The translations under genes were made by a program, and so were the position numbers. A stretch of DNA of 43,533 bases, from the IMG/VR virus record IMGVR_UViG_3300037504_000146, positions 1-43,533 of that record; one strand, written 5' to 3'. Position 1 is the stretch's first letter. Each line of letters begins with the position of its first letter. The DNA comes from a virus. This document shows, piece by piece, positions 1,599 to 43,533 of the stretch. The notes under the pieces were generated by a model, which had not been told where the DNA came from, made no database searches, and saw only the letters and a list, made by a program, of their open reading frames with translations.

Positions 1599-1627
1599 TT
1601 GACAGAGGGTCCAAAAGGTGGTACATT
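1599..1627 (+). promoter_or_regulatory. Strong sigma-70-like late promoter
   Basis: A perfect -35 box TTGACA (1599-1604), 17-nt spacer, and -10 box TACATT (1622-1627), preceded by CC to give CCTTGACA. It lies in the only sizeable gap between the early genes and the terminase genes, so it should drive the virion and lysis operon. Transcription should begin near 1634. Its boxes and spacing match the leftward promoter at 30118-30146 exactly. Confidence 0.85.
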
Positions 1628-1657
1628 CTCATCATTCGTCGAACTGCGAGCAGAGAC

Positions 1658-1680
1658 AAGCCCCGCGCGAGCGGGGTTTT
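1658..1680 (+). terminator. Promoter-proximal intrinsic terminator or attenuator
   Basis: Stem CCCCGC (1661-1666), GCGA tetraloop, GCGGGG (1671-1676), then TTTT; the stem can extend by a G-U and two A-U pairs using AAG at 1658-1660. It lies only about 30-45 nt after the expected start of the late transcript and 14 bp before the terS ATG, so unmodified polymerase could stop here. The T-run is short (four), so efficiency may be partial. Confidence 0.65.
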
Positions 1681-1693
1681 GGCGTTCAAGGCC

Positions 1694-2173: not shown

Positions 2174-2193
2174 GTGTGTCGAGAGGAGCTGCG

Positions 2194-3678
2194 ATGCTGC
2201 GCGAGATGCTCGGGAGCCAGACGGCGGCTCCGATCTGGACGCCGCACCCTGGCCCGCAGACCGAGGCGATGCGCAGTGAGGCCGACGAGCTCTTCTACGG
2301 CGGCGCGGCTGGCGGCGGCAAGTCCGACTTGCTGCTCGGTCTGGCTCTCACCCAGCATCGACGCAGCCTCATCCTCCGGCGCGAGTACACGCAGCTGGTC
2401 GGCGTCGGCGGTCTCATCGAGCGCAGCCGGGAGCTCCTCGGTGGCACCAGCGCACGCTACAACGGATCTGAGCATGTCTGGTGGCACATCCCCGGCGGTC
2501 GCGCTTTGGGCTTCGGCGGTATCGAGCAACAGTCGGATGTCTGGAAGTACGCAGGCAAGCCGCGCGACCTCCTTTGCTTCGACGAGGTGTCGCACTTCAC
2601 ACGCGACCAGTACCGCACGATGCGTGGATGGGTCCGGACTACCGTACCCTGGCAGCGAACCCGAGTGGTGGCCACCGGCAACCCGCCGACCACACCTGAG
2701 GGCGAGTGGGTGGTGGAGCACTGGGCGCCATGGTTGGACCCGACACACCCGCGACCGGCGGAGCCTGGCGAGCTGCGATGGTTCGCAACAATCGACGGGG
2801 CGGAGCGCGAGCTGCCCGGTCCGGAGCCCATCGAGCACGCTGGCGAGACCATCCAGCCCAAGAGCCGCACCTTCATTCCGGCCAGGCTCGAGGACAACCC
2901 ATCACTCGGTGTCGCCTACCGCTCCGAGCTCCAGGCGATGCCGGAGCCGCTTCGAACCCAGCTGCTCTACGGAGATTTCGGGCTCACCCTCGAGGATCAC
3001 CCGTGGCAGGTCATCCCGACCGAGTGGATACGGCTGGCTCTGGAGCGATGGACCGGCGACCGCTCCAGCGAGCAAGGCGCGGTCGGTATCGACTGCGCTC
3101 GAGGCGGAGCGGACCAGCAGGTGCTCGCGTCGCTTCGCGGCGTGTGCTTCGACAAGCTGCAGACATGGCGAGGCAAGGACGTGCCGGACGGTCCGGCGGC
3201 TGCCGGGCTGCTCGCACCACACATCGAGCCCAGCGCCACAGCGTACGTGGATGTCATCGGCGTCGGGTCCTCGGTCTACGACCAACTCCGACAGCAGGGG
3301 GTCCGATGTATCGCGGTCAACAGCGCGGAGTCGGCACCAGAACACGCTCGAGACCGTACCGGCCGACTGCGACCGCGGAACATGCGCTCGTGGGCCTGGT
3401 GGTCGCTCCGGGAGGCGCTTGACCCAGAGACTGGAATGGACGTGGCACTACCTCCTGACCGAGCCCTTGCGGCAGACCTCGCCACGCCTCGCTACCGCAT
3501 CATCGGGACGGACATGATCGCCGTCGAGCCGAAGGAGGACATCATCAAGCGCCTGGGCAGGTCCCCGGACCGCGGCGACGCGGTGTGCTACGCATGGCTC
3601 GGCGTGAGCTGCGCGACGCCGGTCGGGTACCACTCGGTGCAGGGCCGGCGGATTGTGCGGCGGCGGGGTGCGCTGTGA
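2194..3678 (+). CDS. terL: Terminase large subunit (ATPase and nuclease)
   Basis: A 494-residue DNA-packaging motor and head-filling nuclease. ATG 2194 has an AGGAG site 5 bases upstream; a GTG at 2176 is less likely. The ATPase domain carries Walker A GGAAGGGKS (36-44) and Walker B LLCFDE (126-131), then the coupling motif VATGNP. The C-terminal RNase H-like nuclease has candidate metal ligands D300 (AVGIDCARGG), D353 (AYVDVIG) and D462 (DRGDAVCYAW). All expected motifs are present and the length is normal. It would dock on the portal encoded at 5921. The stop overlaps the next small gene by GTGA. Confidence 0.97.
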   Translation: MLREMLGSQTAAPIWTPHPGPQTEAMRSEADELFYGGAAGGGKSDLLLGLALTQHRRSLILRREYTQLVGVGGLIERSRELLGGTSARYNGSEHVWWHIPGGRALGFGGIEQQSDVWKYAGKPRDLLCFDEVSHFTRDQYRTMRGWVRTTVPWQRTRVVATGNPPTTPEGEWVVEHWAPWLDPTHPRPAEPGELRWFATIDGAERELPGPEPIEHAGETIQPKSRTFIPARLEDNPSLGVAYRSELQAMPEPLRTQLLYGDFGLTLEDHPWQVIPTEWIRLALERWTGDRSSEQGAVGIDCARGGADQQVLASLRGVCFDKLQTWRGKDVPDGPAAAGLLAPHIEPSATAYVDVIGVGSSVYDQLRQQGVRCIAVNSAESAPEHARDRTGRLRPRNMRSWAWWSLREALDPETGMDVALPPDRALAADLATPRYRIIGTDMIAVEPKEDIIKRLGRSPDRGDAVCYAWLGVSCATPVGYHSVQGRRIVRRRGAL

Positions 3679-28406: not shown

Positions 28407-28433
28407 GCCCCCGGCTTCGGCCGGGGGCGTTTT
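28407..28433 (+). terminator. Intrinsic terminator of the late operon
   Basis: Stem GCCCCCGGC (28407-28415), a UUCG tetraloop (28416-28419), stem GCCGGGGGC (28420-28428), then GTTTTC. A 9-bp GC stem with the extra-stable UUCG loop and a T-run is a textbook intrinsic terminator. It lies between convergent genes; the leftward strand lacks a T-run, so it mainly stops rightward transcription. Confidence 0.92.
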
Positions 28434-28471
28434 CGTGTGCGCAAAGGGGCGTGGATGACGGTGGTGGTGGG

Positions 28472-29065
28472 CTACAGCGCCGGCCCCATGCCGTCACGCC
28501 AACCCCGCTCAAACGCCTCAATCTCCTCATGGGACGCCTCTCGGTCGTCTCCGATCAACCAACGTTGGAACGCATCCCAGTCGCCATCGAGCGGCTCTTC
28601 GGGGAGCAGTCGGTTGCCATCGGCATCATACGGGTCAGGGCCGCCAGCCATGCGAGCATCGTACCCGCACGACTCGCCGAGCTGTCGCGCGATCTCCGGG
28701 CAGCACTGATGGACCCGTGCCAGCCTCTGCCAGTGTTCATCGAGGCTGGCGTTTCTCTCCAGCTCGATGTCTGATGCGGTCAGCGGCGCGCCACAGTAGG
28801 CGCAATGGTCGATGATCTGATTCATGGTTTCCTCCCACCATGTTGCAGAGGGCGTGGCGTTCATGCGCTCCACCATGTTGCAAAGGGCCTCGTACCCGCG
28901 TCGGTTCGTTTTCCCTGTAATGGCGTCTCCATCGATGAACACGCTGTACGGAGCGGCGCGCTTGATCGTGGCCTTCATCTCGACAACGTCTGGACCGGTG
29001 ATACGGAAACGAATTAGCGCGCCGTCGCGGCCGGTGTTGCTGATTGAGTAGGTTCGCTGTGTCAT
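28472..29065 (-). CDS. Leftward operon gene 3, Zn-binding-type protein (197 aa)
   Basis: The start is ATG at 29065 (reading left), with GGAGG 6 bases upstream. The N-terminus MTQRTYSISN is shared in its first five residues with the first gene of this operon. Residues about 83-140 contain Cys pairs (CAYCGAP, then CCPEIARQLGESC), which may bind zinc; the C-terminal part is acidic with DDREASHEEIEAFERGWRDG. No family was recognised. It is the distal gene of the leftward operon, 35 bp beyond the previous gene, and ends facing the late operon terminator. Confidence 0.7.
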   Translation of the reverse strand: MTQRTYSISNTGRDGALIRFRITGPDVVEMKATIKRAAPYSVFIDGDAITGKTNRRGYEALCNMVERMNATPSATWWEETMNQIIDHCAYCGAPLTASDIELERNASLDEHWQRLARVHQCCPEIARQLGESCGYDARMAGGPDPYDADGNRLLPEEPLDGDWDAFQRWLIGDDREASHEEIEAFERGWRDGMGPAL

Positions 29066-29100
29066 GGTTGCCTCCATTCGTCCGTTCCCACAATCCCTGG

Positions 29101-29574
29101 TCACTCGACTTCGTCAGCGTACGCCGACATGGTGGCGACAATGTTGCCCCCAATGGCAACGCCGAACGCGTCAGCCCAGCGGTCGACGTCGGGCACAAAG
29201 GACCTCGATCCGAGGTCCTTTCCTTCGCCTAAGGCATGGTCTGAGGTCCATACCTCGACGACCAGGGTCCCCCCGCCGTAGCGGGCGACCCTGTACCTGT
29301 AGCCCGAGGACGTGATGCCTTCGAGCCGGATGCTGCCGTCGGCGTGCGACGTCGCCGTCGCACGGCAGCTGTAGTACGGTGATGCCGCTGTAACGGCGAC
29401 ATCACCGTTGGCGTGGTACTCGATCTTCTCGAGTTCCACGCCAGTGTGGATTCCGGTCTGACGGACGCTACGCGGGCAGCGTCCGTTCTCGACGTTGCGC
29501 AACCAGCCGGCTGCTACTTCCGCAGCAGCAGCCGGAAAGGTTGCTAGGTCCGTAAGTTGCAGTGTATCAGTCAT
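29101..29574 (-). CDS. Leftward operon gene 2, unknown protein (157 aa)
   Basis: The start ATG 29574 follows a GGAGGACAGGAAC region. The 157 residues include an Ala-rich helix (LATFPAAAAEVAAGWLRNV) and a beta-rich centre (GDVAVTAASPYYSCRATATS; YRYRVARYGGGTLVVEVWT). The C-terminal helix is ANG-like DRWADAFGVAIGGNIVATM. No family was recognised. It sits between two unrecognised genes in the only leftward operon of the genome, where lambda-like phages keep regulators, recombination or host-takeover genes. Confidence 0.7.
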   Translation of the reverse strand: MTDTLQLTDLATFPAAAAEVAAGWLRNVENGRCPRSVRQTGIHTGVELEKIEYHANGDVAVTAASPYYSCRATATSHADGSIRLEGITSSGYRYRVARYGGGTLVVEVWTSDHALGEGKDLGSRSFVPDVDRWADAFGVAIGGNIVATMSAYADEVE

Positions 29575-29600
29575 GTTCCTGTCCTCCATTATCCCGGCAG

Positions 29601-29617
29601 ACGCCCCGTGGGGGCGT
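29601..29617 (+). terminator. Short GC hairpin between leftward genes
   Basis: Stem ACGCCCC (29601-29607), loop GTG, stem GGGGCGT (29611-29617), followed on the plus strand by TTC. The T-run is on the plus strand, so it might stop rightward antisense transcripts; on the minus strand it would be an intergenic mRNA hairpin. Confidence 0.4.
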
Positions 29618-29625
29618 TTCGACTA

Positions 29626-30096
29626 TCACCAGCGCTCCGGCTCGGGGACGGTTGGGGCCGCGTCGGCGAGTGCGTCACTCAACCTATCCGCGACATGCTC
29701 AACCTCGCCCTCGGTGCACCCGAGGTCCGACCACCGGATCTCGAGCACGCCGCCCAGGTTGTCGCCACTGACAACCGTGAGCGTTTCCCCGACCCAATCG
29801 ACGCGACAGCGCGGGAGTCCGCAGAACTCGCCGTCGCTGTCCAAGACGCGCCAGCCGCCTGGCTGGCTGTCGCCCCACAGGGCGATGCCAGAGCCGTCGA
29901 TATCGGCGTGTGCTCCGGGCTTCAAATGCCCGCAAAACCTCCATCCACGAACGGAACCCAGATATAGCCCATCCACGGTGATGTGCGCCTCATACATCGG
30001 CCAGTGATCATCAACGCTCAGGCTGTAGTCGTCGTCGAGCGGCCGCAGCTCGACTACCGGCTGAGTGGTTTCGATCTCGATGGTTCGCTGTGTCAT
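29626..30096 (-). CDS. Leftward operon gene 1, unknown protein (156 aa)
   Basis: The start ATG 30096 follows a GGAGGACAGGGAC region, nearly the same leader as the next gene. It begins MTQRTIEIETTQPVVELRPL and has a beta-rich middle (WRFCGHLKPGAHADIDGSG; GIALWGDSQPGGWRVLDSDG) and a C-terminal acidic helix (GCTEGEVEHVADRLSDALAD). The Cys/Trp/Gly pattern suggests a small globular domain. No family was recognised. First gene behind the leftward promoter at 30118-30146. Confidence 0.7.
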   Translation of the reverse strand: MTQRTIEIETTQPVVELRPLDDDYSLSVDDHWPMYEAHITVDGLYLGSVRGWRFCGHLKPGAHADIDGSGIALWGDSQPGGWRVLDSDGEFCGLPRCRVDWVGETLTVVSGDNLGGVLEIRWSDLGCTEGEVEHVADRLSDALADAAPTVPEPERW

Positions 30097-30117: not shown

Positions 30118-30146
30118 AATGTAATACCATGGCGGTAACTTGTCAA
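30118..30146 (-). promoter_or_regulatory. Leftward sigma-70-like promoter
   Basis: On the minus strand: TTGACA (complement of 30141-30146), 17-nt spacer, TACATT (complement of 30118-30123). Boxes and spacing match the late promoter at 1599 exactly, and the -35 is again preceded by CC. It drives the three leftward genes, with about 15 nt of leader. Confidence 0.85.
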
Positions 30147-30205
30147 GGGGTCAAGGCAAGAAATTTCCCAATCCGGCAAACACACCTTGACACCGCGGCA
30201 CAAGG
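30144..30205. promoter_or_regulatory. Candidate operator region with CAAGG half-sites
   Basis: Four CAAGG/CCTTG pentamers occur between and across the divergent -35 regions: CAAGG at 30144-30148 and 30152-30156, CCTTG at 30185-30189 and CAAGG at 30201-30205. The last two form an inverted pair 11 bp apart over the rightward -35 and spacer. They could be binding sites for the adjacent small HTH protein. Short motifs like this can also arise from the -35 boxes themselves. Confidence 0.4.
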
Positions 30206-30215
30206 GCGCTATATT
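30187..30215 (+). promoter_or_regulatory. Rightward early sigma-70-like promoter
   Basis: TTGACA (30187-30192), 17-nt spacer, TATATT (30210-30215). It lies 23 bp before the ATG of the HTH gene, so the leader is short. It is divergent from the leftward promoter, with about 40 bp between the two -35 boxes, like the PL/PR control regions of temperate phages. It should drive the Cas12, recombination and replication genes. Confidence 0.87.
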
Positions 30216-30238: not shown

Positions 30239-30442
30239 ATGTTGGCGAAGGAACTGAAAACGGCGGGAATCACACAGCGCGAACTCGCCGACCTGCTCGG
30301 CGTGACATGCGCGTCGGTGTCCCGGAAGCTCTCCGGGCACCGACGATGGACGGTTGAAGAGGCCGTCCGGCTGATGCCGTACTTGCGGGGCCGCGGGCTG
30401 GACGTCCAGCTCGAGGACCTGCTCCCAAGGGAGGCGGCGTGA
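30239..30442 (+). CDS. Small HTH regulator (Cro-like, 67 aa)
   Basis: ATG 30239 is preceded by CGGAGG. Residues about 10-33 form a helix-turn-helix (GITQRELADLLGVTCASVSR), followed by KLSGHRRWTVEEAVRLMPYL, the standard Cro/C1-type DNA-binding fold; the C-terminus is a short acidic-basic tail. Being first in the rightward operon and facing a second promoter, it fits a Cro-type autoregulator of the early genes. No larger CI-type repressor with a protease domain is visible. Its stop overlaps the next GTG as GTGA. Confidence 0.85.
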   Translation: MLAKELKTAGITQRELADLLGVTCASVSRKLSGHRRWTVEEAVRLMPYLRGRGLDVQLEDLLPREAA

Positions 30443-30723
30443 TCCGCCTCGACGAAACCACCCGGATGGAGAACACGTGGTCGAGCGATCCTCGCCGGGG
30501 TCCGGAGTCTACCGGGGGCTCCGACCCGGCATCCTTGAAGTCTCCTCACTCCTCCTTCATTAGCCCCGGCGGCGTCGGTGTCGCCGGGGCGCCTTTGTTG
30601 GAGGCGGCGCTCCGTGAGGCGAACGTCGCCTATCACGAGCATGGCTCTGCCAGCTCCGAGTATCGCGTCGCGCTGGCGGAGCTGGAGATCGTCATCCATC
30701 GAGCACAGTGGGCGGAGGTTTGA
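30439..30723 (+). CDS. Unknown protein upstream of Cas12 (94 aa)
   Basis: GTG 30439 overlaps the HTH stop; ATG 30466 is an alternative. The N-terminal half is low-complexity Ser/Pro/Gly, while residues about 53-94 form an amphipathic helical pair (PLLEAALREANVAYHEHGSA; LAELEIVIHRAQWAEV). A strong hairpin (30563-30590) lies in its middle, so a shorter product from a later start is possible. The stop is 1 bp before the cas12 ATG, with the GGAGG site inside the last codons, so it is coupled to cas12. No family was recognised. Confidence 0.55.
   Translation: MIRLDETTRMENTWSSDPRRGPESTGGSDPASLKSPHSSFISPGGVGVAGAPLLEAALREANVAYHEHGSASSEYRVALAELEIVIHRAQWAEV
30563..30590 (+). terminator. GC hairpin upstream of cas12
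   Basis: Stem GCCCCGGCG (30563-30571) with CGCCGGGGC (30582-30590) and a 10-nt loop, followed by GCCTTTG. It resembles an intrinsic terminator with a weak T-run and lies between the HTH gene and cas12, inside the 94-residue reading frame. It might limit cas12 expression. Confidence 0.45.
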
Positions 30724-30724
30724 A

Positions 30725-32482
30725 ATGGCATACGGAAACATGAGTCAGCGGACCCGCGTCTACGAGTACGGTTGCGGCGAGCCGACTACCAACGCCGACC
30801 GGCTGGATGAGCAGCTATTGCTCGCCCACAGGTACAAGAACAAGCTCACGGAGATTGAGCGGGCGCGCCGCGAGAAGGTGCGCGCCATCATCTCTGAGCA
30901 CGGCGACGTGGCGCCGCTTGAAGACGAGGTGGCGGCCCAGGCCTCCACGCTGAAGGAGCTACGCGAGACGATCAAGCGAGCACGGGTGGCGGCTCGCTCG
31001 CGCGGTGCCGATACTGGCCTGCTCGAGCGCCAGGCGAAGGAGCTGGCGTCGCAGCTCAAGGAGCGCCGCGCTGAGCTGAGGGCGATCCGTAAGGCCATCG
31101 CCAACGATCCGCAAACGAAGGCGCGGCTCCATGAAACGGACCAGCAGGCGCGTGATGCCGTAAAGGCGACTCGGGCCGAGTCTGGCCTGTACTGGGGGAC
31201 CTACCTCAGCGTGGAGCAGGACATGGATCGGGCACGGAAGGGCCGCATGGACCCGCGCTTCCGCCGCTGGACTGGCGACGGTCGTGTGTCCGTGCAGATG
31301 CAGGGCGGTGCGACGGTGGCAGCGGTGCTGGGCGGCGACGACACCCGGCTGCAGATCGACCCGCCAGATCCAGCGGCGTGGTCATCTCCGGTGCGCGGTG
31401 AGCGCCGACGTGCGGCGCGTACGACGTGTCGTATCCGTGTCGGCTCGATGGGGCGCGCGCCGCTGTGGTGCGAGCTCCCCGTCACGATGCACCGACCGCT
31501 ACCGGCGAACGGCCGGATCAAGTGGGCGCACGTCCACCGCAGTCGCGTCGGCCGCAAGCACCGGTACAAGCTGCTGGTGGTGGTGAGCTTCGAGGAGCAC
31601 GAACCGACGCCATCAGGCTCGGACGTTGTGGCTATTGATCTCGGATGGCGCGCCGTAGACGTGCCACAGGACGGCGAGGCGCGCCGCGCGCTGCGTGTCG
31701 GGTACTGGCAGGACACCAGCGGAGACCATGGCCAGGTGCTGTTGGAGCCCGGGATTCTCGAACGGCTGAAGACCTGCGAACGTCTTCGGTCGATCCGTGA
31801 CCAACACCTAGATGAGATGCGACCGCGGCTCGTAGAGTGGGCAAGGGACGCCGACCTGCCGGAGTGGTGGGCGGAACGGGCCGAGACTCTGGCTCAGTGG
31901 AGATCTGCAGCGAGGCTGGCCGCACTAATGATGCACTGGCGCGAGAATCGGTTCGACGGAGACGAGGAGATGTTCGCCGCGGCTGAGGCATGGCGCAAGC
32001 AGGATGCCCACCTGTACGACTGGGAGTCGAATCTCCGGGACAAGGTGACCCGTCGTCGTCGCGAGGCGTACCGCGTGTTCGCAGCGCAGGTGGCGAGGCG
32101 GTACAAAGCGGTAATCCTGGAACACTTTGATCTACGGCGTGTGGCTCGGAAAGCTGCGCCGGAAGGTGAGGCGGACGCGAACCAGGCCGCCCGGCATCAT
32201 CGGACGTGGGCGGCTGTGAGCACCCTGCGACAGGCCATCATCGACGCGTGCGAGCGCGAGGGGCTGGATGTGATCACGATGCCGAGCGCGTACACGACTC
32301 GGACGTGTCACCAGTGCGGCTCGGTGGAGTCGTGGGACCAAGCGGAGCAGATCCTGCACCGCTGCTCGCAGTGTGGTGATGTGTGGGACCAGGATCGTAA
32401 CGCGGCAATCAACCTACTGGCTGCCGGTCTTGGCGAGCGGTGCAGTGACGACGAAAAGGCGGGGAGCGCTCGCGCTTTCTAG
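30725..32482 (+). CDS. cas12m: Compact Cas12 effector, Cas12m-like (type V)
   Basis: A 585-residue protein, ATG 30725 with GGAGG 7 bases upstream. The N-terminal half is helical and basic (residues about 24-150, QLLLAHRYKNKLTEIERARR), followed by beta-rich wedge-like segments (GLYWGTYLSVEQDM; APLWCELPVTMHRPLPANGR). The RuvC domain has VVAIDLGWR (D305), AVILEHFDLRR (E466) and WDQDRNAAINLL (D557); the zinc ribbon has CHQC (528-531) and CSQC (547-550). From memory the segment order matches Cas12m (formerly V-U1/c2c4), an RNA-guided DNA-binding effector whose studied members bind without cutting. Here the D-E-D triad looks intact. A CRISPR array begins 126 bp after the stop. A free-standing TnpB is unlikely given the size and array. 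Confidence 0.88.
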   Translation: MAYGNMSQRTRVYEYGCGEPTTNADRLDEQLLLAHRYKNKLTEIERARREKVRAIISEHGDVAPLEDEVAAQASTLKELRETIKRARVAARSRGADTGLLERQAKELASQLKERRAELRAIRKAIANDPQTKARLHETDQQARDAVKATRAESGLYWGTYLSVEQDMDRARKGRMDPRFRRWTGDGRVSVQMQGGATVAAVLGGDDTRLQIDPPDPAAWSSPVRGERRRAARTTCRIRVGSMGRAPLWCELPVTMHRPLPANGRIKWAHVHRSRVGRKHRYKLLVVVSFEEHEPTPSGSDVVAIDLGWRAVDVPQDGEARRALRVGYWQDTSGDHGQVLLEPGILERLKTCERLRSIRDQHLDEMRPRLVEWARDADLPEWWAERAETLAQWRSAARLAALMMHWRENRFDGDEEMFAAAEAWRKQDAHLYDWESNLRDKVTRRRREAYRVFAAQVARRYKAVILEHFDLRRVARKAAPEGEADANQAARHHRTWAAVSTLRQAIIDACEREGLDVITMPSAYTTRTCHQCGSVESWDQAEQILHRCSQCGDVWDQDRNAAINLLAAGLGERCSDDEKAGSARAF

Positions 32483-32608
32483 GTTATTGGATTCAGGCAG
32501 GTTACAGCCGGCCAGTGTGCTCTTTGAAAACTTGAAACCGTCGCTGAATGACAGCTCTCGAAAAGAGAGATGTAACCCTTTAGCGGCCGGCAGTTTGCGC
32601 CGGCCGCC
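32483..32608 (+). promoter_or_regulatory. CRISPR leader with candidate promoter and hairpins
   Basis: The 126-bp gap between cas12 and the first repeat is less GC-rich than its surroundings in its middle. It holds ATGACA (32548-32553), 17 nt, TGTAAC (32571-32576), a weak promoter-like pair that would start RNA near 32583. A CTCTC-GAAAA-GAGAG hairpin lies at 32555-32569. A perfect 9-bp hairpin GCGGCCGGC/GCCGGCCGC (32583-32591 with 32599-32607) ends one base before the first repeat. No sequence complementary to the repeat was seen, so no tracrRNA is apparent. Confidence 0.6.
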
Positions 32609-32838
32609 GTCGCAACGCCTGCTCATGGGCTTCATGCATGAGACTACGCCGAACGCGTCTTGGACGACTACCGCCAGCGGGTCGCAACGCCTGCTCATGG
32701 GCTTTGTCTGTGAGACCCGCGGCCCGGGCGGATGTACGGGGGACCGTCGCCAGGTCGCAACGCCTGCTCGTGGGCTTCATGCATGAGACCTCGGCGATCG
32801 CCAGGGCGACGTGCGTCGCAACGCCTGCTCATGGGCTT
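32609..32838 (+). CRISPR. Mini CRISPR array: three full repeats, one degenerate, three spacers
   Basis: Repeats of 36 nt at 32609-32644, 32681-32716 and 32754-32789; a fourth (32815-32838) keeps only its first 24 nt. All begin GTCGCAACGCCTGCTC and full ones end GAGAC. Spacers: 32645-32680 (36), 32717-32753 (37) and 32790-32814 (25), all different. Within the repeat, positions 14-19 (CTCATG) pair with 29-34 (CATGAG); repeat 2 has T29/G30 and repeat 3 has G17, both keeping the stem through G-U pairs. The degenerate repeat is distal to cas12, so the leader is on the cas12 side and transcription is rightward. No cas1, cas2 or cas4 is present. Confidence 0.95.
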
Positions 32839-33593: not shown

Positions 33594-34684
33594 TCTCAGA
33601 GAGCACAGCACTCGCAAAAGTTGAGCTACCGGACGGGCCGGTCGGCTCCATCCAGGAGGTCCGTACCGCACTGGCGCGGATCTCCGACCAGTGCAACCTC
33701 GTCACGGCGATCGCATCGCCGGACTTCATCCCGCCGCTACACCGCGTGAGCTTCCGTGTGGTCGCGCTCGATCCGACAGTGGACGAGCGCGGCAACGGCG
33801 GCGACTGCTACCGGTCCGGGCTGTTCTGCCAGAAAAACGAGCGCGCCCTCACCAAGATCGGCCTGCTCCGCATCCTTGATGCGGCCGGTGGCTCGCTGGT
33901 GGACACCCACCGCACCGACGACCGCAGCGATCCGCACTACTGCGAGTGGACCGTGACCATCGCCATCCCGATGCTGGACGGTAAGGTCAGGCGTTTCGCC
34001 GCCACCAAGGAGGTGGATTTGCGCGACGGGTCGGATCAAGCGAGCAGCATGAAGCCTGCGCAGCTCGCCGGATCTCGAAGCCACATCGCTGCGCTCGCCG
34101 AGAGCAAGGCGATGAACCGCGCGATCCGCGGCGGACTGTCGCTGAAGCAGAAGTACACCACCGGCGAGCTCGACAAGCCGTTTGTCGTGCCGGCGCTGGT
34201 GCCCCACCTCCCGATGGATGACCCAGAGGTGCGACGGCAGGTGGTCGCCTCCATGATGGCCTCGCAGACCGCACTCTACGGCGGCGGCGGGGCCGCAGCC
34301 AGCCAGCCACAGGGACCGGCGCTTGAGCCGGGCGAGGTCGAGGTATTGGACCACGAGCCCGAGACTGTCGATGCGGAGCCGTGGGAGGAGCCGCAGACGG
34401 CGGCCGACTCCACGGACCCATGGGACGCCGCACCAGCGGAGGCCGTGAGCTGTGTCCTCCCCGTCGACGTCGACCAGATCCCACGCGACGACGAGACGCG
34501 GTTCAGGTACGTGGACAAGCTGAATGACTACCACCGCAAGCTCACCGAGGCGTGCGGCGAGGACCAGGCGGCGGCGATCGTCGCCAAGCACAGCCCAGCA
34601 GAGGGCTCGCCGCTGTCGTGGTCGCTCGAGGACATCGCGTCTCTCGGCAAGGCGCTCGCGGCGGCGTTGGAGCGTGCATCATGA
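33590..34684 (+). CDS. Candidate single-strand annealing / recombination protein
   Basis: A 364-residue protein starting at GTG 33590. The N-terminal half has RLAL-type strands and VRTALARISDQCNLVTAIA, then AATKEVDLRDGSDQASSMKP, and an Ala/Arg-rich helix AESKAMNRAIRGGLSLKQKY. That 'A-x-T/S-K-A-x-N-R-A-x-R' helix recurs in phage Rad52/RecT-like annealing proteins. The second half is an acidic, disordered linker followed by a small helical domain (CGEDQAAAIVAKHSPAEGS). It is coupled to the SbcD gene, supporting a role in recombination. The family call is tentative. Confidence 0.5.
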   Translation: MISESTALAKVELPDGPVGSIQEVRTALARISDQCNLVTAIASPDFIPPLHRVSFRVVALDPTVDERGNGGDCYRSGLFCQKNERALTKIGLLRILDAAGGSLVDTHRTDDRSDPHYCEWTVTIAIPMLDGKVRRFAATKEVDLRDGSDQASSMKPAQLAGSRSHIAALAESKAMNRAIRGGLSLKQKYTTGELDKPFVVPALVPHLPMDDPEVRRQVVASMMASQTALYGGGGAAASQPQGPALEPGEVEVLDHEPETVDAEPWEEPQTAADSTDPWDAAPAEAVSCVLPVDVDQIPRDDETRFRYVDKLNDYHRKLTEACGEDQAAAIVAKHSPAEGSPLSWSLEDIASLGKALAAALERAS

Positions 34685-35895
34685 AGCTGCTACACGTCGG
34701 TGACATCCATCTGCGCGACGGCGCCCACATGGACGACGTCGTCAACAGTCTCGAGTTCGTGGCCGAGACCGCCGTCGACGAGCAGGTTCACGCCATCCTG
34801 ATCCCCGGCGACGTGTTTGAGCGGAAGAGCAGCCCAACGGAGCGCGCGGCGTTCCTCGCGTGGCTGCAGCGATTGCGTGAGCATTACGTTTGGCTCGGAC
34901 CGGTGCTGATCTGCCGCGGCAACCACGACTACCCCGGCGACCTGCCAGTGTGGGAGCTGGACGAGAACGTTCACGTCCACGAGCGGCCGACTGTGGTCAC
35001 ACTGGTCACAGGCTCGCACCCGTCCCACACGTTGGTCTACGGATGGCCCGTGCCGACGAACCATCACATCGAAGGAGCCACCGACTCCATCGACCTGATG
35101 GTGATCCCATGGCCAGAGAAGGCACATCTCGCCGCGCGCGGATACGCCGGCGAGGAGGGCGATCAGGCAGGGAGCCATGCCCTCGCCAACATGCTCCAGA
35201 CGATGGCGGCGACCCGGCCCGCGCCGGAGCGACCGCTCGTCATCATGGGCCACCTATCGGTGGTAGGCGCGACCGTCTCAAGCGGACAGCCGCTGATCGG
35301 GCGCGAGATCCAGATCGGCACGGCACAGCTGCTCGAGACAAACGCGCGGCATGTGGCGCTGAATCACATCCACAAGCACCAGATCATGGACGAGGGCGTC
35401 GTGTACGCTGGCTCGCTTACTTGCCACGACTTCGGCGAGGAGGGGGAGCGGAAGGGTATCGTCCTAATCGACACCGACGCCGGCGAGCGGTTCATCCCGA
35501 CGCCAGCGCGGCGGTGGGTCACGGTCGAGGCCCGTGTAGCGGACAGTGGCGAAAGTGCGGCCGAAAGTCTGGACGGAGTGAAATGGATTTCTCCACCGTC
35601 GCTGCCGAGCGGAGCCAACTGGATGCGGGGCGCCAACATCCGCTACCGCTACCGCTGCACGGCCGAGGAGCAGCATCTGTTCGACCATGCGGAGATCGAG
35701 CGGCGGTTCGCCGAGTCGCACGCGCTGAAGATCGTGCCGCTGGTCGAGCGCTTGGAGCGTGTGCGAGCCGCCGCGGTGGCGGAGGCCAGGGGGCCGATCG
35801 ACAAGCTCCGCTCCTGGGGCGAGGCCACCAACACCGAGATCACCGAGACGCTCGTCGAGAAGGTCGAGCGGTTGTGCGCTGAGCTGGAGAACTAA
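34681..35895 (+). CDS. sbcD: SbcD/Mre11-like nuclease
   Basis: A 404-residue metallophosphatase-type nuclease. Motifs: LLHVGDIHLRD (D8, H10), IPGDVFERKS (D44), ICRGNHDYPG (80-83), MGHLSV, and LNHIHKHQ in place of the common GHxH. ATG 34681 overlaps the previous stop as ATGA. The C-terminal 130 residues are a helical domain that would dock on SbcC. SbcCD cuts hairpins and processes DNA ends, and phages use it in recombination-dependent replication. It abuts the SbcC gene. Confidence 0.92.
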   Translation: MKLLHVGDIHLRDGAHMDDVVNSLEFVAETAVDEQVHAILIPGDVFERKSSPTERAAFLAWLQRLREHYVWLGPVLICRGNHDYPGDLPVWELDENVHVHERPTVVTLVTGSHPSHTLVYGWPVPTNHHIEGATDSIDLMVIPWPEKAHLAARGYAGEEGDQAGSHALANMLQTMAATRPAPERPLVIMGHLSVVGATVSSGQPLIGREIQIGTAQLLETNARHVALNHIHKHQIMDEGVVYAGSLTCHDFGEEGERKGIVLIDTDAGERFIPTPARRWVTVEARVADSGESAAESLDGVKWISPPSLPSGANWMRGANIRYRYRCTAEEQHLFDHAEIERRFAESHALKIVPLVERLERVRAAAVAEARGPIDKLRSWGEATNTEITETLVEKVERLCAELEN

Positions 35896-35896
35896 G

Positions 35897-38146
35897 ATGC
35901 GCTACAGCAGGATCACACTACGCGGTATCACCAGGTACGAGGACGAGGTCTCGCTGGACCTCGACGCCATCGGACCGGGTCTCATCGCTCTCGCTGGACC
36001 AAACGGCGCGGGCAAGACCACCATACTCGAGGCTCCGGTGGCGGGTCTGCAGCTCGAGTATCCAAGCCGGCCGGGGCCGCTCCATCAAGTGGCCCACGGA
36101 AAGGACGCCATGATCGGCCTGGGGCTCGCCGACGGCACCCGGACATCCGTCCACATTGACGCCGTCTTGAAGCAGCCGAAGACCGAGGCGTACCTGTTTG
36201 ACGGCGACGTGCCAGTGGTCTCCGGCAAGGTGCGCGAGTACCAGGCCGAGATCGAGCGGCGCTACGGCTCGCGCCGGCTGATGCTGTCCGCCATGCTCTC
36301 GGCGCAGGGAGGGCTCGGGCGGTTCCTCGACCTCGGGAAAGCCGAGCGCAAGGAGCTGTTGTCCGAGATCCTCGACACCGCGGGACTGCAGGAGATCGCC
36401 GAGGCCGCACGGGGCCGCGCCCGATCAGGCGACACCCAAGCAGAGCGGCTGCGTGGGCAGCTCGAGAGCGCTCAAAGCAGCCTCTCTCAGCTCGCCGAGG
36501 AGCCGGACGATCTCGAGGACCTCTTGGAGCAGCGCGAGCAGCTGGAGGCGAAATCCGCGCAGCTGGCGGCCAATCTCGAGGAGGCGCGCGAGGCGTACTC
36601 GAATTTGCAGCGGCAACAAGCCGAGGCGGAGAGCATGCGCAAGGAGGTGGAGCGGTTGGCGGGCGAGCTGGACCGTGTGAAGCGCCAGCTCGACACCAAC
36701 GCGCAGGAGCAGAGCCGCGTCAGCCGTGACAACGATCACCGCCAAGCGACGCTCGAGCACGAGATCCAGCTGGCGCAGCAAGAGGCCGATCGGCTGTCCG
36801 AGTACGAGAACGCCGAGCGGCAGCTGACGGCGCTGCGCGAGGAGCTGGCTGGGCAGCGCACCGCACTCGAGGCCGTGGAGGCCGAGCTGGAGCGCCGACA
36901 AGCCACGCTGCGAGAGGCCGATGCGCAAAACGTGCGGATCGACCAGCAGCGCACCCGCATCCAGGCGACGCTCGACGCCGCTCAGCGCTCTGTTGAGGTC
37001 ATGGACGACGTGCCGTGCGCGGAGTACACCGAGCCCATCGACCTGCCCGGCACGTGCCCGTTGCTGGCGGATGCGCGCACCAACAGACAGCGGATGCAGG
37101 AGGCGCAGCAGGAGCTCGCCGAGCTGGCGCCGTTGGTCGACACTGAGAGGCTGCACACCGCATGTGACGAGGCCCGCGCAAACCAGGTGCTCGCGCAGAC
37201 CAGCATCCGAGATCTTGAGCTGCGGATCTCTGATCTGGAGGAGCTGGCGCTGCTGGCTCCCACCGCCAGGGCTGCCGACCAGACGATCCAGCGCGCACGC
37301 CGCGATCTCGCCGATGCGCTGGCGGAGCGCGACAGACGGAGTACGGAGCTGCAAAGACAGGCCGATGAGCTGGTCGCTCGACGCGACGAGCTGACAGCCG
37401 ATCTGGAGGCTGCGAACGCCACCATCCCCGAGGACCTCGGCCCGCAGCTCGAGGAAGCCGCGCAGCGCGGGCGGTCGATCCGTAAGGAGCACGAGGAGAC
37501 CGCCGGCAAGCTCCGCGGGCTGGACCGCATGATCGCCCGCGCCGAGGCCAACGCAGAGCGGCGGCGTGAGCTGGAGACCACCGTCGACGACCTCACCGAG
37601 CAGATCACCACGCTTGAGGCCGACACCGCAGAGTGGCGGACCATCGAGCAGGCGTTTGGCCGCGACGGCATCCAGGCACTCGAGATCGACGCCGCCGGCC
37701 CGGAGCTGTCGGAGCTGACCACCGACCTCTTGCGCACGTGCTTCGGCCCGAGGTTCGAGGTGCAATTCGTAACACAAGCGCCGCGCAAAAGCGGCGGGAT
37801 GAAGGAGGTGTTTGACGTCACAGTCCTCGACTATGAGCGAGGCAGAGAGGGCGACGTCGGGACGCTATCCGGCGGCGAGAAGACCATCATCTCCGAGGCA
37901 ATATCGCTCGCCCTTGCGATCTACGTCGGGCGCACATCCGAACACCGCTTCGAGACGCTATTTAGGGACGAAACGGCAGGCGCATTGGACCCGGACAACG
38001 CCGCGCGATACGTCCAGATGTTGCGGCGTGCACTCCTGATCTCTAGCGCGTACCAGATCGTCTACATTGCACAGCAGCGCGAGGTCTGGGAGGCGGCGGA
38101 CGCGGTGGTGTGGGTCGATGACGGACGGCTGGAGGTCCTGCCATGA
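35897..38146 (+). CDS. sbcC: SbcC/Rad50-like ATPase
   Basis: A 749-residue SMC-type protein, ATG 35897, one base after the sbcD stop. Walker A is GPNGAGKT (34-41), then a long coiled coil (about 175-600) and signature LSGGEK (657-662), then Walker B-type FRDETAGALD (D691, E692). At the coil tip C374 and C387 (VPCAEYT ... GTCPLL) may form a zinc hook, spaced wider than the usual CxxC. It partners SbcD. It is shorter than E. coli SbcC (1048 aa), as phage forms tend to be. It overlaps the next gene by ATGA. Confidence 0.93.
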   Translation: MRYSRITLRGITRYEDEVSLDLDAIGPGLIALAGPNGAGKTTILEAPVAGLQLEYPSRPGPLHQVAHGKDAMIGLGLADGTRTSVHIDAVLKQPKTEAYLFDGDVPVVSGKVREYQAEIERRYGSRRLMLSAMLSAQGGLGRFLDLGKAERKELLSEILDTAGLQEIAEAARGRARSGDTQAERLRGQLESAQSSLSQLAEEPDDLEDLLEQREQLEAKSAQLAANLEEAREAYSNLQRQQAEAESMRKEVERLAGELDRVKRQLDTNAQEQSRVSRDNDHRQATLEHEIQLAQQEADRLSEYENAERQLTALREELAGQRTALEAVEAELERRQATLREADAQNVRIDQQRTRIQATLDAAQRSVEVMDDVPCAEYTEPIDLPGTCPLLADARTNRQRMQEAQQELAELAPLVDTERLHTACDEARANQVLAQTSIRDLELRISDLEELALLAPTARAADQTIQRARRDLADALAERDRRSTELQRQADELVARRDELTADLEAANATIPEDLGPQLEEAAQRGRSIRKEHEETAGKLRGLDRMIARAEANAERRRELETTVDDLTEQITTLEADTAEWRTIEQAFGRDGIQALEIDAAGPELSELTTDLLRTCFGPRFEVQFVTQAPRKSGGMKEVFDVTVLDYERGREGDVGTLSGGEKTIISEAISLALAIYVGRTSEHRFETLFRDETAGALDPDNAARYVQMLRRALLISSAYQIVYIAQQREVWEAADAVVWVDDGRLEVLP

Positions 38147-39934: not shown

Positions 39935-41305
39935 ATGAGACTCAGACACTACCAACAGCAGGGTCGCGACTGGCTCGCTCCGCGTCGGCAGGCACTTCTC
40001 CTCGATGACATGGGCCTCGGGAAGACCTGCCAGGCGCTCACCGCGCTACCACCTGGATCGCCGGTGCTCGTGGTCTGCCCAGCGATCGTAAAGCACGAGT
40101 GGGCCGCACAGGCACGCTCGTGGCGCCCAGACTACTCCGTCGAGATCTTGCAGGGTCTCAGCTCGTTCCGGTGGCCGGAACCCGGCGAGATCGTCATCAC
40201 CAACTACGAGATCCTCCCGCGGTGCTCGCTCGAGGCGACTCGCGCGCGGCAGAAGGGCAAGATCACCAGGGCATGCGAGGCCGAGCTGAAGCGAGAAGCG
40301 CGACGCGTGCCGCAGCCCCACAATCACACCATCATCATCGCCGACGAGGCGCACCGGCTTGGACGAAACAAGACGCTCCAAACCATGCGATTCCGCTCCC
40401 TGCGCACCAAGGCAATCCGCCGCGACGGTCGTGTCTGGGGCCTCACCGGAACGCCGCTGGAAAACCGTCCACCAGAGCTGTGGAATTTGCTCACCAGCTT
40501 CCAACTGCATGAGCGGGCGTTCGGCTCGTGGCCGCGATTCCGGTACGCGTTCAACGCAATCGAGGGCGACTACGGCATCGAGTGGGGCGAGTCCAACCGC
40601 GCCGAGGTGGTGCCCGCCATGCGGCGGGTGGCGCTGCGGCGGCTCAAGACCCAAGTACTCCCCGAGCTACCGCCAAAACAGTACAGGACCATCCCTGTCA
40701 CGCTGAACCACCAGGACCGGGAGCTGTGCGACGCGGCGGCGGCCGAGCTGTCAGAAGCCGGTATTGACCTCGACAATGCCACGGCGGAGATCCTGGCATC
40801 GGCCGCGGAGCGGCTGGAGTTCACCACGCTCGCGAAGGCCCGGAAGGCTCTCGCCACCGTAAAGCTCGCCTTGGCGGAGCAGCTTGTCCAGGAGTACGAG
40901 GACCAGGAGGTGCCGCTCGTGGTCATGAGCGACCACAAACACCCGGTCGAGGTGATCGGTCGGCGGCGCAACTGGGGCATGATCCACGGCGGCGCATCCG
41001 CCACAGACCGCAGCCTCGCCGTGGAGCGATTTCAGGACCGAAAGCTGCGCGGAATAGCCATCACGATCCGTGCCGGCGGAGTCGGAATTACGCTCACTCG
41101 GGCGTCCGATATCCTGCGAATTGACCGCAACTGGACGCCCGCAATCAACATGCAAGCCGAGGACCGTTGCCACCGATTCGGGCAGGCGAAATGCGTTACG
41201 ATTGTGGACATGGTAGCGGACCACCCGCTCGATGCTCGAGTGGCGAAAATCTGCGTTGAAAAGAGTGGGCTAATGGACACCATCGACGCGATGGCTGTAC
41301 GATAG
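39935..41305 (+). CDS. SNF2-family DEAH helicase
   Basis: A 456-residue protein, ATG 39935. Motif I DDMGLGKT (24-31), motif Ia VLVVCPA, motif II DEAH (136-139), motif III LTGTPLENR, then a second RecA domain with GASATDRSLAVERFQ, AGGVGITLTRA (motif V) and EDRCHRFGQ (motif VI). This is the full Swi2/Snf2 set without large insertions. Phage versions act in replication or in clearing proteins from DNA. It follows the small zinc genes and precedes the AlpA and replication block. Confidence 0.95.
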   Translation: MRLRHYQQQGRDWLAPRRQALLLDDMGLGKTCQALTALPPGSPVLVVCPAIVKHEWAAQARSWRPDYSVEILQGLSSFRWPEPGEIVITNYEILPRCSLEATRARQKGKITRACEAELKREARRVPQPHNHTIIIADEAHRLGRNKTLQTMRFRSLRTKAIRRDGRVWGLTGTPLENRPPELWNLLTSFQLHERAFGSWPRFRYAFNAIEGDYGIEWGESNRAEVVPAMRRVALRRLKTQVLPELPPKQYRTIPVTLNHQDRELCDAAAAELSEAGIDLDNATAEILASAAERLEFTTLAKARKALATVKLALAEQLVQEYEDQEVPLVVMSDHKHPVEVIGRRRNWGMIHGGASATDRSLAVERFQDRKLRGIAITIRAGGVGITLTRASDILRIDRNWTPAINMQAEDRCHRFGQAKCVTIVDMVADHPLDARVAKICVEKSGLMDTIDAMAVR

Positions 41306-41983: not shown

Positions 41984-42169
41984 ATGGACACGGAGAGATT
42001 ACTACGGCGACAACAGGTCGAGGAGATGTGCGCGATTGGCCGGGCGTATCTGTACCGGCTGATTGCAAATGGCGAGTTCCCAGCGCCGGTCAAGGTGGGG
42101 GTGCGCGCTGTCAGATGGCGCGAGTCTGACGTGTTGCGCTGGATCTCAGAGCGAAAACGGGCCTCGTGA
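41984..42169 (+). CDS. AlpA-like DNA-binding regulator (61 aa)
   Basis: ATG 41984 with GGAGG upstream. The sequence DTERLLRRQQVEEMCAIGRA, YLYRLIANGEFPAPVKVGVR and AVRWRESDVLRWISERKRAS matches the AlpA/winged helix-turn-helix family, which regulates phage and satellite genes and can act as an excisionase. With no integrase here, a transcriptional role is more likely. It sits directly before the replication initiator. Confidence 0.88.
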   Translation: MDTERLLRRQQVEEMCAIGRAYLYRLIANGEFPAPVKVGVRAVRWRESDVLRWISERKRAS

Positions 42170-43026
42170 TGGCTGAACGCAAATGGTGCAAGGTGTGGCG
42201 GTCACTGCCACGTGGGCGCCGTATCCGGCGGCTGTCGGTCGAGGGGCGGTGGCTGTACGTGGTGTTGCTGACGATCCCCGAGACCATGGCCGGCCGGATC
42301 GAGTCTGACGGGCTACCGTACTCGGTGGAGGACCTCGCCGACCTGGCGGGGCTCCCCGAGTCGGGCGTCTCCTCCGCACTGGATCACCTGGACGAGCTGC
42401 GGCTGATTCACCGCGAGGGGGACTGCTGGGCGATCACCGACTACCAGGACCGGCAGGAGACGCCAGAGGCCCGTAGGCAAAGGCGTTATCGCGAGGCGCG
42501 TGACGACGACCGTGACAATTACGTTACTGTAACGCGACAGTCACAAAACAATAACGCCGCGAGTAACGGTGGCGTAACGACAGAGGCAGAGGCAGAGGCA
42601 GAGGCAGAGGCAGAGGCAGAGGCAGAGGCAGAGGGAGAGAGGGGGACACTCCCCCAAACCCCCTCTCACGGTGCTGCGGATGAGGAGCAGAAGAACACCA
42701 CCTCGCTGTACCCGGATGCTTTCGACCGCTTCTGGGCCGCCTACCCGAAGAAGGTCGGCAAGCGCGAGGCGCTGAAGGCCTGGAAGCAGACACGGAAGGA
42801 GCGACCGCAGACTGACGAGCTCGTGGATAGGGTGGAGCGGCTGGCCGCGACCGACGACTGGCGAGAGCAGGGCGGCAAGTTCGTACCGAACCCCGCTACC
42901 TGGCTCCGGCGTGGCGGGTGGGATGACCAAATCCCGGTCAGGCGGAAGCAGCGGTCGAGCCTGTCCGAGGACTGGCACCGCCAGAACCCGGACGTCGACG
43001 CCGACGCAGTGAATGGGGTAATCTGA
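42169..43026 (+). CDS. Replication initiator, DnaD/O-like
   Basis: A 285-residue protein, ATG 42169. The N-terminal winged-helix (about 1-95: CKVWRSLPRGRRIRRLSVEG; GLPESGVSSALDHLDELRLI) matches phage replisome organisers. A linker of (Glu-Ala)8 at about 139-154 is encoded by GAGGCA repeats. The C-terminal domain (DAFDRFWAAYPKKVGKREAL; KFVPNPATWLRRGGWDD) is a known partner-binding region of phage replication proteins. It would bind the origin and recruit the loader encoded next. The stop overlaps the DnaC-like start. Confidence 0.88.
   Translation: MAERKWCKVWRSLPRGRRIRRLSVEGRWLYVVLLTIPETMAGRIESDGLPYSVEDLADLAGLPESGVSSALDHLDELRLIHREGDCWAITDYQDRQETPEARRQRRYREARDDDRDNYVTVTRQSQNNNAASNGGVTTEAEAEAEAEAEAEAEAEGERGTLPQTPSHGAADEEQKNTTSLYPDAFDRFWAAYPKKVGKREALKAWKQTRKERPQTDELVDRVERLAATDDWREQGGKFVPNPATWLRRGGWDDQIPVRRKQRSSLSEDWHRQNPDVDADAVNGVI
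42583..42630 (+). repeat. Hexanucleotide microsatellite (GAGGCA)8 in initiator gene
   Basis: Eight perfect copies encode (Glu-Ala)8 between the winged helix and the C-terminal domain, forming a helical acidic linker. Copy number changes would not shift the frame. Confidence 0.97.
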
Positions 43027-43533
43027 TGGACAGCAACCTGTATCACCGGATGCGGACCGGTCCACTAGCCGAGCCGGGTGAGGCGCCAGACAGCTACTGC
43101 CGGCGACTGTTTGGCGGCCAGGAGTGGTTGTGTCGTCGCTGCGAGGTGGTGCGGCTGCCACATCCTGGTATCTGTGACCGGTGCATGGAGCTGTGCGAGG
43201 CAGAGGATCGAGAGCGCAGTGGGCAACCGGACGACCCGGACGTCGCGATGAAGGCGGCCGGTGTGCCGGAGCGATGTCGGAGCTACACATGGGCGGCGAG
43301 CGGTCTCGATGAGCAGCGCGTGGTGGGTCCGCTGCGCTCGTGGGTGTGGGATGGCGGTGGAGACAGCCCCGGAGTGTTGCTGTGGGGCTCCACGGGCACG
43401 GGCAAAACCGGCGCCGCGGTCTGCATGCTGCGGGACCAACTGGCTTTGCGGAAGCCAGCCCAGTACGTGTACGTACCGGACTGGCTGGACGCACTGCGCG
43501 ACGCGGAGCGCGAGGGGAACCCACGGATGGTGT
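43026..43533 (+). CDS. DnaC/IstB-like helicase loader ATPase, 5' part
   Basis: The first 127 codons of the 268-residue loader (continued at 1-426), plus 127 bases duplicated at the join. ATG 43026 overlaps the initiator stop as TGATG. The N-terminus has paired Cys (CRRCEVV and CDRCMELC, residues 36-57), a likely zinc-binding element, followed by a linker and the P-loop GSTGTGKT at 121-128. Zn-binding N-terminus plus AAA+ core fits phage helicase loaders, which bind helicase with the N-terminal part. Confidence 0.88.
   Translation, partial: MDSNLYHRMRTGPLAEPGEAPDSYCRRLFGGQEWLCRRCEVVRLPHPGICDRCMELCEAEDRERSGQPDDPDVAMKAAGVPERCRSYTWAASGLDEQRVVGPLRSWVWDGGGDSPGVLLWGSTGTGKTGAAVCMLRDQLALRKPAQYVYVPDWLDALRDAEREGNPRMV
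43407..43533. repeat. Terminal 127-bp direct repeat, right copy
   Basis: Exact copy of 1-127. Removing it gives one circle with an unbroken reading frame across the join. Confidence 0.95.

Follow-up and report, generated by a model that had tools for sequence, protein, structure and literature searches.

In phage lambda, the lysis genes are the first that late transcription comes to, and the terminator tR′ has a long loop. In phage 21, the binding element located between the −35 and −10 elements consists of direct repeats. The known Q-type families have a common job and a common position and no common sequence, a case of convergence. Q, AlpA and GafZ perform one and the same function at equivalent positions or promoters and show no mutual sequence similarity (PMC7171158; PMC9371919; PMC11150451). 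Q-type proteins depend on two DNA elements: a binding element in the interval from −35 to −10, and a −10-like pause element just past the transcription start (PMC9371919). The known binding elements vary between systems (PMC6606751; PMC7969949). Phage 21 is a published system with the same plan as the locus described here (PMC6606751). At PA0807, a target of AlpA, a terminator is predicted to begin 26 bp downstream of the start (PMC7969949).

The window, that is, the whole stretch of DNA analysed, is the 43,533-bp virus record IMGVR_UViG_3300037504_000146. Positions 1–127 and 43407–43533 are identical. This exact 127-bp terminal direct repeat gives the record the appearance of a complete genome in circularised form, though it is classed as "linear"; joined at the repeat, the genome measures 43,406 bp, and the gene order continues over the record ends. 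On the closed circle, the order is early promoter, replication initiator, helicase loader, endonuclease-like gene, the gene at 899–1585, promoter, terminator, terS, terL, head and tail. The features at and around the junction between early and late genes are:

42169–43026, + strand: replication initiator (profile annotation, gene order)
43026 through the join to 426, + strand: DnaC-like helicase loader (profile annotation, gene order)
423–899, + strand: endonuclease-like gene, upstream neighbour of the candidate (phrog_503, PHROG_503, E 1.1e-24)
899–1585, + strand: candidate late antiterminator, 228 aa, orphan, pI 8.9 (position; coding evidence)
1599–1604, + strand: −35 element TTGACA of the late promoter (direct sequence reading, motif scan)
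1605–1621, + strand: 17-nt spacer GAGGGTCCAAAAGGTGG, where a Q-type binding element would be expected
1622–1627, + strand: −10 element TACATT, preceded by TGG (extended −10; direct reading, motif scan)
1634–1680, + strand: predicted short leader RNA, about 46–48 nt if terminated (from promoter and hairpin positions)
1658–1680, + strand: intrinsic-terminator-like hairpin with GCGA loop and TTTT, tR′-like (sequence, fold, genome-wide scan)
1694–2173, + strand: terS, helix-turn-helix protein (relatives annotated as terminase small subunit)
2176–3678, + strand: terL (phrog_979, E 8.8e-38; related loci)
1694–28176, + strand: late block, with terminase, portal, protease, major head protein, connectors, tape measure, tail genes, spanin-like gene and methyltransferase

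Within the late block, a head morphogenesis protein gene (+ strand) lies between portal and protease, and the spanin-like gene is at 26.0–26.6 kb, near the block end. The product of terS also matches PHROG_645, labelled "Rnase E"; this label looks wrong, because the relatives of terS are annotated as terminase small subunits or helix-turn-helix proteins beside terL. The endonuclease-like gene has a further weak match to the MTES_1575/DUF559 restriction-endonuclease-like family (PF18741, E 0.007, below cut-off). Inside the replication initiator gene, a (GAGGCA)n run at 42580–42640 encodes an acidic Glu-Ala-rich linker that is likely length-variable. No integrase was recognised among the genes scanned.

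Promoter and leader hairpin upstream of terS

The initial annotation described TTGACA-N17-TACATT followed by a GC hairpin with TTTT and then terS, and direct reading of 1599–1694 confirms this arrangement. The promoter scored 10/12 in a promoter scan, and the position of its −10 element places the expected start at about 1633–1635. Counted from there, the A-U-extended stem of the hairpin (AAG-CCCCGC-GCGA-GCGGGG-TTT(T)) begins about 24 nt and the GC stem about 27 nt downstream. The GC stem occupies 1661–1666/1671–1676, the A-U/G-U extension 1658–1660/1677–1679 and the T-tract 1677–1680. The six core pairs have pairing probabilities above 0.99; the fold of the whole leader is only moderately unusual for its composition (z = −1.9).

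Both elements are nearly unique in the genome. The rule TTGAC[AT]-N16-18-TANNNT, applied to both strands of the whole 43.4-kb genome and to shuffled genomes, gave three sites (1599 on +, 30187 on + and 30146 on −) vs 0.15 expected in shuffles. Stems with 6 or more GC pairs and a trailing TTTT, sought over the same whole genome and its shuffles, occur at two places on the + strand (1661 and 28407) and at none on the − strand, vs 0 per shuffle on +. By a d'Aubenton-Carafa-type score, these two hairpins tie for best + strand terminator (34.1 for the leader hairpin, 33.9 for that at 28407). The promoters mark the early divergent pair and the late start, and the hairpins mark the leader and the late-block end; all matches thus lie at borders expected of transcription units. 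The leader has one of each, about 30 bp apart. In the same motif scan, 1599–1627 was the only strong promoter upstream of the late block, and the block itself (1694–28176) contained no further strong promoter of the sigma-70 type. The remaining transcription signals are:

28407–28434, + strand: terminator-like hairpin ending the late block, facing the − strand genes (genome-wide scan, terminator score)
30118–30146, − strand: early leftward promoter TTGACA-N17-TACATT (motif scan)
30187–30215, + strand: early rightward promoter TTGACA-N17-TATATT (motif scan)
30239–30442, + strand: small HTH repressor-type gene, first after the rightward promoter (phrog_4583, E 2.5e-8)
30563–30590, + strand: long, strong GC hairpin with weak T-tract, 3′ of the HTH gene, tR1-like in position (hairpin scan)

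Three genes are on the − strand (28472–30096), diverging from the + strand early genes at about 30.15 kb. In the early divergent pair (30118–30215), the −35 elements are only about 40 bp apart, with a AAGAAATTTCCC-type palindromic sequence between them; this region is likely the operator for the HTH protein of 30239–30442. Lambda has tR1 at a position like that of the hairpin at 30563–30590.

These results bear out the initial reading of a late promoter with leader terminator in a lambda-type plan, which is well supported by genome-wide uniqueness and by closed-circle gene order. A lambda-type late-switch architecture at 1599–1680 is considered probable. The elements through which a Q-type protein would act were sought as well. 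Within the spacer, imperfect direct repeats 9–10 bp apart are no better than in shuffles (P 0.77). The sequence CATCAT at 1630–1635 (+ strand) is a 4/6 candidate for a −10-like pause element, with a chance of 0.21, which is not significant. Neither a binding element nor a pause element can be claimed at this promoter. In the neighbourhood, a perfect inverted repeat, GCCGG-GAAAT-CCGGC, is present at 1562–1576, at the end of the gene at 899–1585, with 22 bp between it and the late −35. The 9-mer AATCCGGCA occurs again ahead of the early rightward promoter; as an element common to the late and early promoters it was rejected, since the distances differ and the recurrence may be chance.

Comparison of terL loci covered the best 80 relatives in IMG/VR and ten in genomes (Nitrospirillum, Azospirillum, Neorhizobium, a deltaproteobacterium and others). 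No conserved promoter-terminator module was found upstream of the 89 related terL genes scanned. The best relatives mostly have neither module nor candidate gene, and most of their upstream genes differ, so the comparison speaks neither for nor against the proposal. A DNA pattern of the promoter plus the identical hairpin had no match in IMG/VR. As a positive control, the DNA downstream of known Q21-type Q genes was scanned, and in several cases moron genes separated Q from the late promoter; this control is uninformative because of these intervening genes and because the long loop of lambda tR′ would be missed.

The orphan gene at 899–1585

The open reading frame at 899–1585 is credible as a real gene. 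It has a GGGAGG Shine-Dalgarno sequence, its start overlaps the upstream stop, and it is the best coding frame among the six; its codon bias is weaker than that of its neighbours. It is the last gene of the early/replication block, immediately before the late promoter. The protein has no match in Pfam, PHROGs, NCBIfam or PADLOC and none by sequence in the PDB. Relatives were sought in IMG/VR (with the whole protein and with C-terminal and N-terminal fragments), in GTDB genomes, phages and plasmids, and in the terminase-kin genomes and records together with about 790 genomes of two phyla; no match in any of these was credible. Searches by pattern could miss distant kin, because exact 8-residue words were required. 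A single match at E 7e-4 was rejected as chance, being antisense in a tig-clpP-clpX-lon region.

For the Q21 family (PF06530), Pfam has no match to the protein and none in the 43,533-bp record, and a ten-member family profile run with hmmsearch --max (filters off) scored the protein below 0 bits. For the lambda Q family (PF03589), Pfam likewise has no match to the protein and none in the record, and hhalign with lambda Q returned a probability of 0.04%. The 82 Q family (PF06323) has no Pfam match to the protein, and the genome search for this family had no control that rang. The PDB sequence search gave no match to AlpA. Because Q21, lambda Q, 82 Q, AlpA and GafZ are mutually dissimilar, the failed profile tests lower the case for membership in a Q family and not that for a Q-like function.

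Two single-sequence AlphaFold models have a mean pLDDT of about 50, too poor to use. Only the first 50 residues are fairly confident (blocks at 66–89); they form a β-β-α-β arrangement; the C-terminal half is helical in the model at low confidence. Fold searches with these poor models returned generic helical and ribosomal-protein-like matches and listed neither Q nor AlpA, a result that excludes nothing. The modelled successive C-terminal helices are compatible with a helix-turn-helix unit, short of showing one. Read by eye, the segment LLDLVCDVGAFLERLPRDERKAVLRVWAARVEDWW...HRRLSKSPAYIRGMAWLDMALQGLL could form helices that finish with a helix-turn-helix, an arrangement found in sigma region 4 and Q21.

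The initial annotation had proposed this 228-residue protein as a Q-like antiterminator. Its position agrees with that proposal, whereas sequence, profile and structure comparisons produced no evidence for it. By virtue of its position, it is the best candidate for the role.

Proposed switch and alternative explanations

The early rightward operon, from the promoter at 30187 through the replication genes, would be transcribed first, with 899–1585 as its last gene. Host sigma-70 RNA polymerase would start constitutively at 1599–1627 and halt at the hairpin at 1658–1680, releasing an RNA of about 46–48 nt. The hairpin may also shield the late genes against early read-through. The protein of 899–1585 would then load on polymerase at or just past the late promoter and allow read-through into terS and the 26-kb late block, working like Q, AlpA or GafZ, yet being no recognisable member of those families. 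Since the 26-kb late block has no other strong promoter, a terminator within the first 50 nt of the one in front of it would be hard to account for unless polymerase is let past. That the locus is a late switch of the Q/PR′/tR′ kind with this protein as its antiterminator is judged an even bet. The further claim is tentative, at slightly worse than even chances: that the protein founds a new family of processive late antiterminators, with an N-terminal β-β-α-β part and a helical C-terminal part, unrelated to Q21, lambda Q, 82 Q, AlpA and GafZ and acting at a promoter whose leader is very short.

The strongest alternative retains the Q-type leader switch and assigns read-through to another early gene, a host factor or the RNA itself. 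The candidate has no detectable antiterminator features, and several early genes are equally uncharacterised, such as those for Cys-rich and unknown proteins at 38.1–42.2 kb; against this, no other early gene adjoins the late promoter, and a leader of about 46 nt offers little room for an RNA-based antiterminator. This explanation is unlikely, at something over one chance in five. Somewhat less probable still is that the hairpin serves chiefly to terminate the early operon at its 3′ end and is leaky, the late promoter reading through partly and constitutively with no antiterminator. Leakage is conceivable because the U-tract has only four U, and the hairpin does come after the last early gene. 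However, a terminator serving as insulation should lie upstream of the late promoter and not 30 bp downstream of its −10 element, and since the terminator at the late-block end is much like this one in the shortness of its T-tract, such a design seems sufficient in this phage.

It is improbable that the hairpin acts on the terS message, through 5′ stability or translation control, and not on transcription. The hairpin does lie 14 nt upstream of the terS ATG (1694), where the Shine-Dalgarno sequence is poor, but its form of stem, GNRA-type loop, stem and TTTT is that of the other terminator in the genome, and no obvious alternative pairing with the terS start dominates the fold. Chance can be set aside almost entirely: a hairpin scan under looser rules does yield many chance matches, but the strict genome-wide counts against shuffles, with all matches placed at transcription-unit borders, show that the pairing at 1599–1680 is not a chance one. 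Should the protein of 899–1585 act as the antiterminator, it would represent one more independent way of preventing hairpin formation at the RNA exit channel, and the signature of promoter plus leader terminator could be used to find such proteins where homology fails. If it is inactive, the locus would be an ordinary lambda-like late promoter in an unusual phage.

The early operon carries other features of note. An SbcD-like and SbcC/Rad50-like pair at 34681–38146, in the early block, adjoins an SNF2-type helicase at 39935–41305. The gene at 30725–32482, in the early operon, encodes a 585-aa Cas12m-like effector, closest to Cas12m by PDB sequence match (E 7e-111), with PADLOC matches to Cas12u1/Cas12f at E about 1e-132 (Cas12u1, E 2e-132). 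It is followed at 32609–32838 by a CRISPR array of four GTCGCAACGCCTGCTCATGGGCTTCATGCATGAGAC-type repeats, the last one truncated, with three spacers (36, 37 and 25 nt). To judge from its sequence, 30725–32838 is a phage-borne compact type V CRISPR locus. The intervening 32483–32608, about 125 bp between the gene and the first repeat, has short inverted stretches (for example GCCGGC...GCCGGC) and could hold a leader or accessory RNA. No spacer matched the phage's own genome better than shuffles, and the two longer ones had no phage match in the collection searched. Cas12m effectors silence transcription by binding DNA and not by cutting it (PMC10442227, PMC11013384). That a phage carries a Cas12m-like gene in its early operon suggests a role directed at rival elements or host genes.

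Comparison with described late switches

Among the closest counterparts are the Q/PR′/tR′ switches of lambda (PF03589) and phage 21 (PF06530). As here, a post-replication gene is followed by a constitutive-looking sigma-70 promoter, a leader terminator and the late genes, and early divergent promoters lie elsewhere in the genome. In contrast to these phages, the leader of about 46 nt opens directly onto terS and terL rather than onto lysis genes, and a QBE and pause element are not recognisable; by profile, the protein of 899–1585 is unrelated to lambda Q and to phage 21 Q. With AlpA of Pseudomonas aeruginosa, the locus shares a promoter with a terminator about 26 bp past the start and a candidate regulator of more than 100 aa. 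The spacer holds GGGTCC and GGTA, vaguely like GGGACG-N5-GGTA; its reading as an AlpA-binding element was rejected, as the boxes are 7 nt apart and not 5 (register) and only 4/6 positions match. The Phage_AlpA protein encoded at 41984–42169 (PF05930) has only its name in common with AlpA. In the Caulobacter gene transfer agent (GafZ/GafY), as proposed here, a capsid-gene cluster is subject to antitermination by a protein unlike other antiterminators. Unlike in the present locus, the first gene there precedes the terminator, and the promoter has GafY and IHF as activators. Given that Q, AlpA and GafZ do not resemble one another, an orphan at the position of Q is unsurprising.
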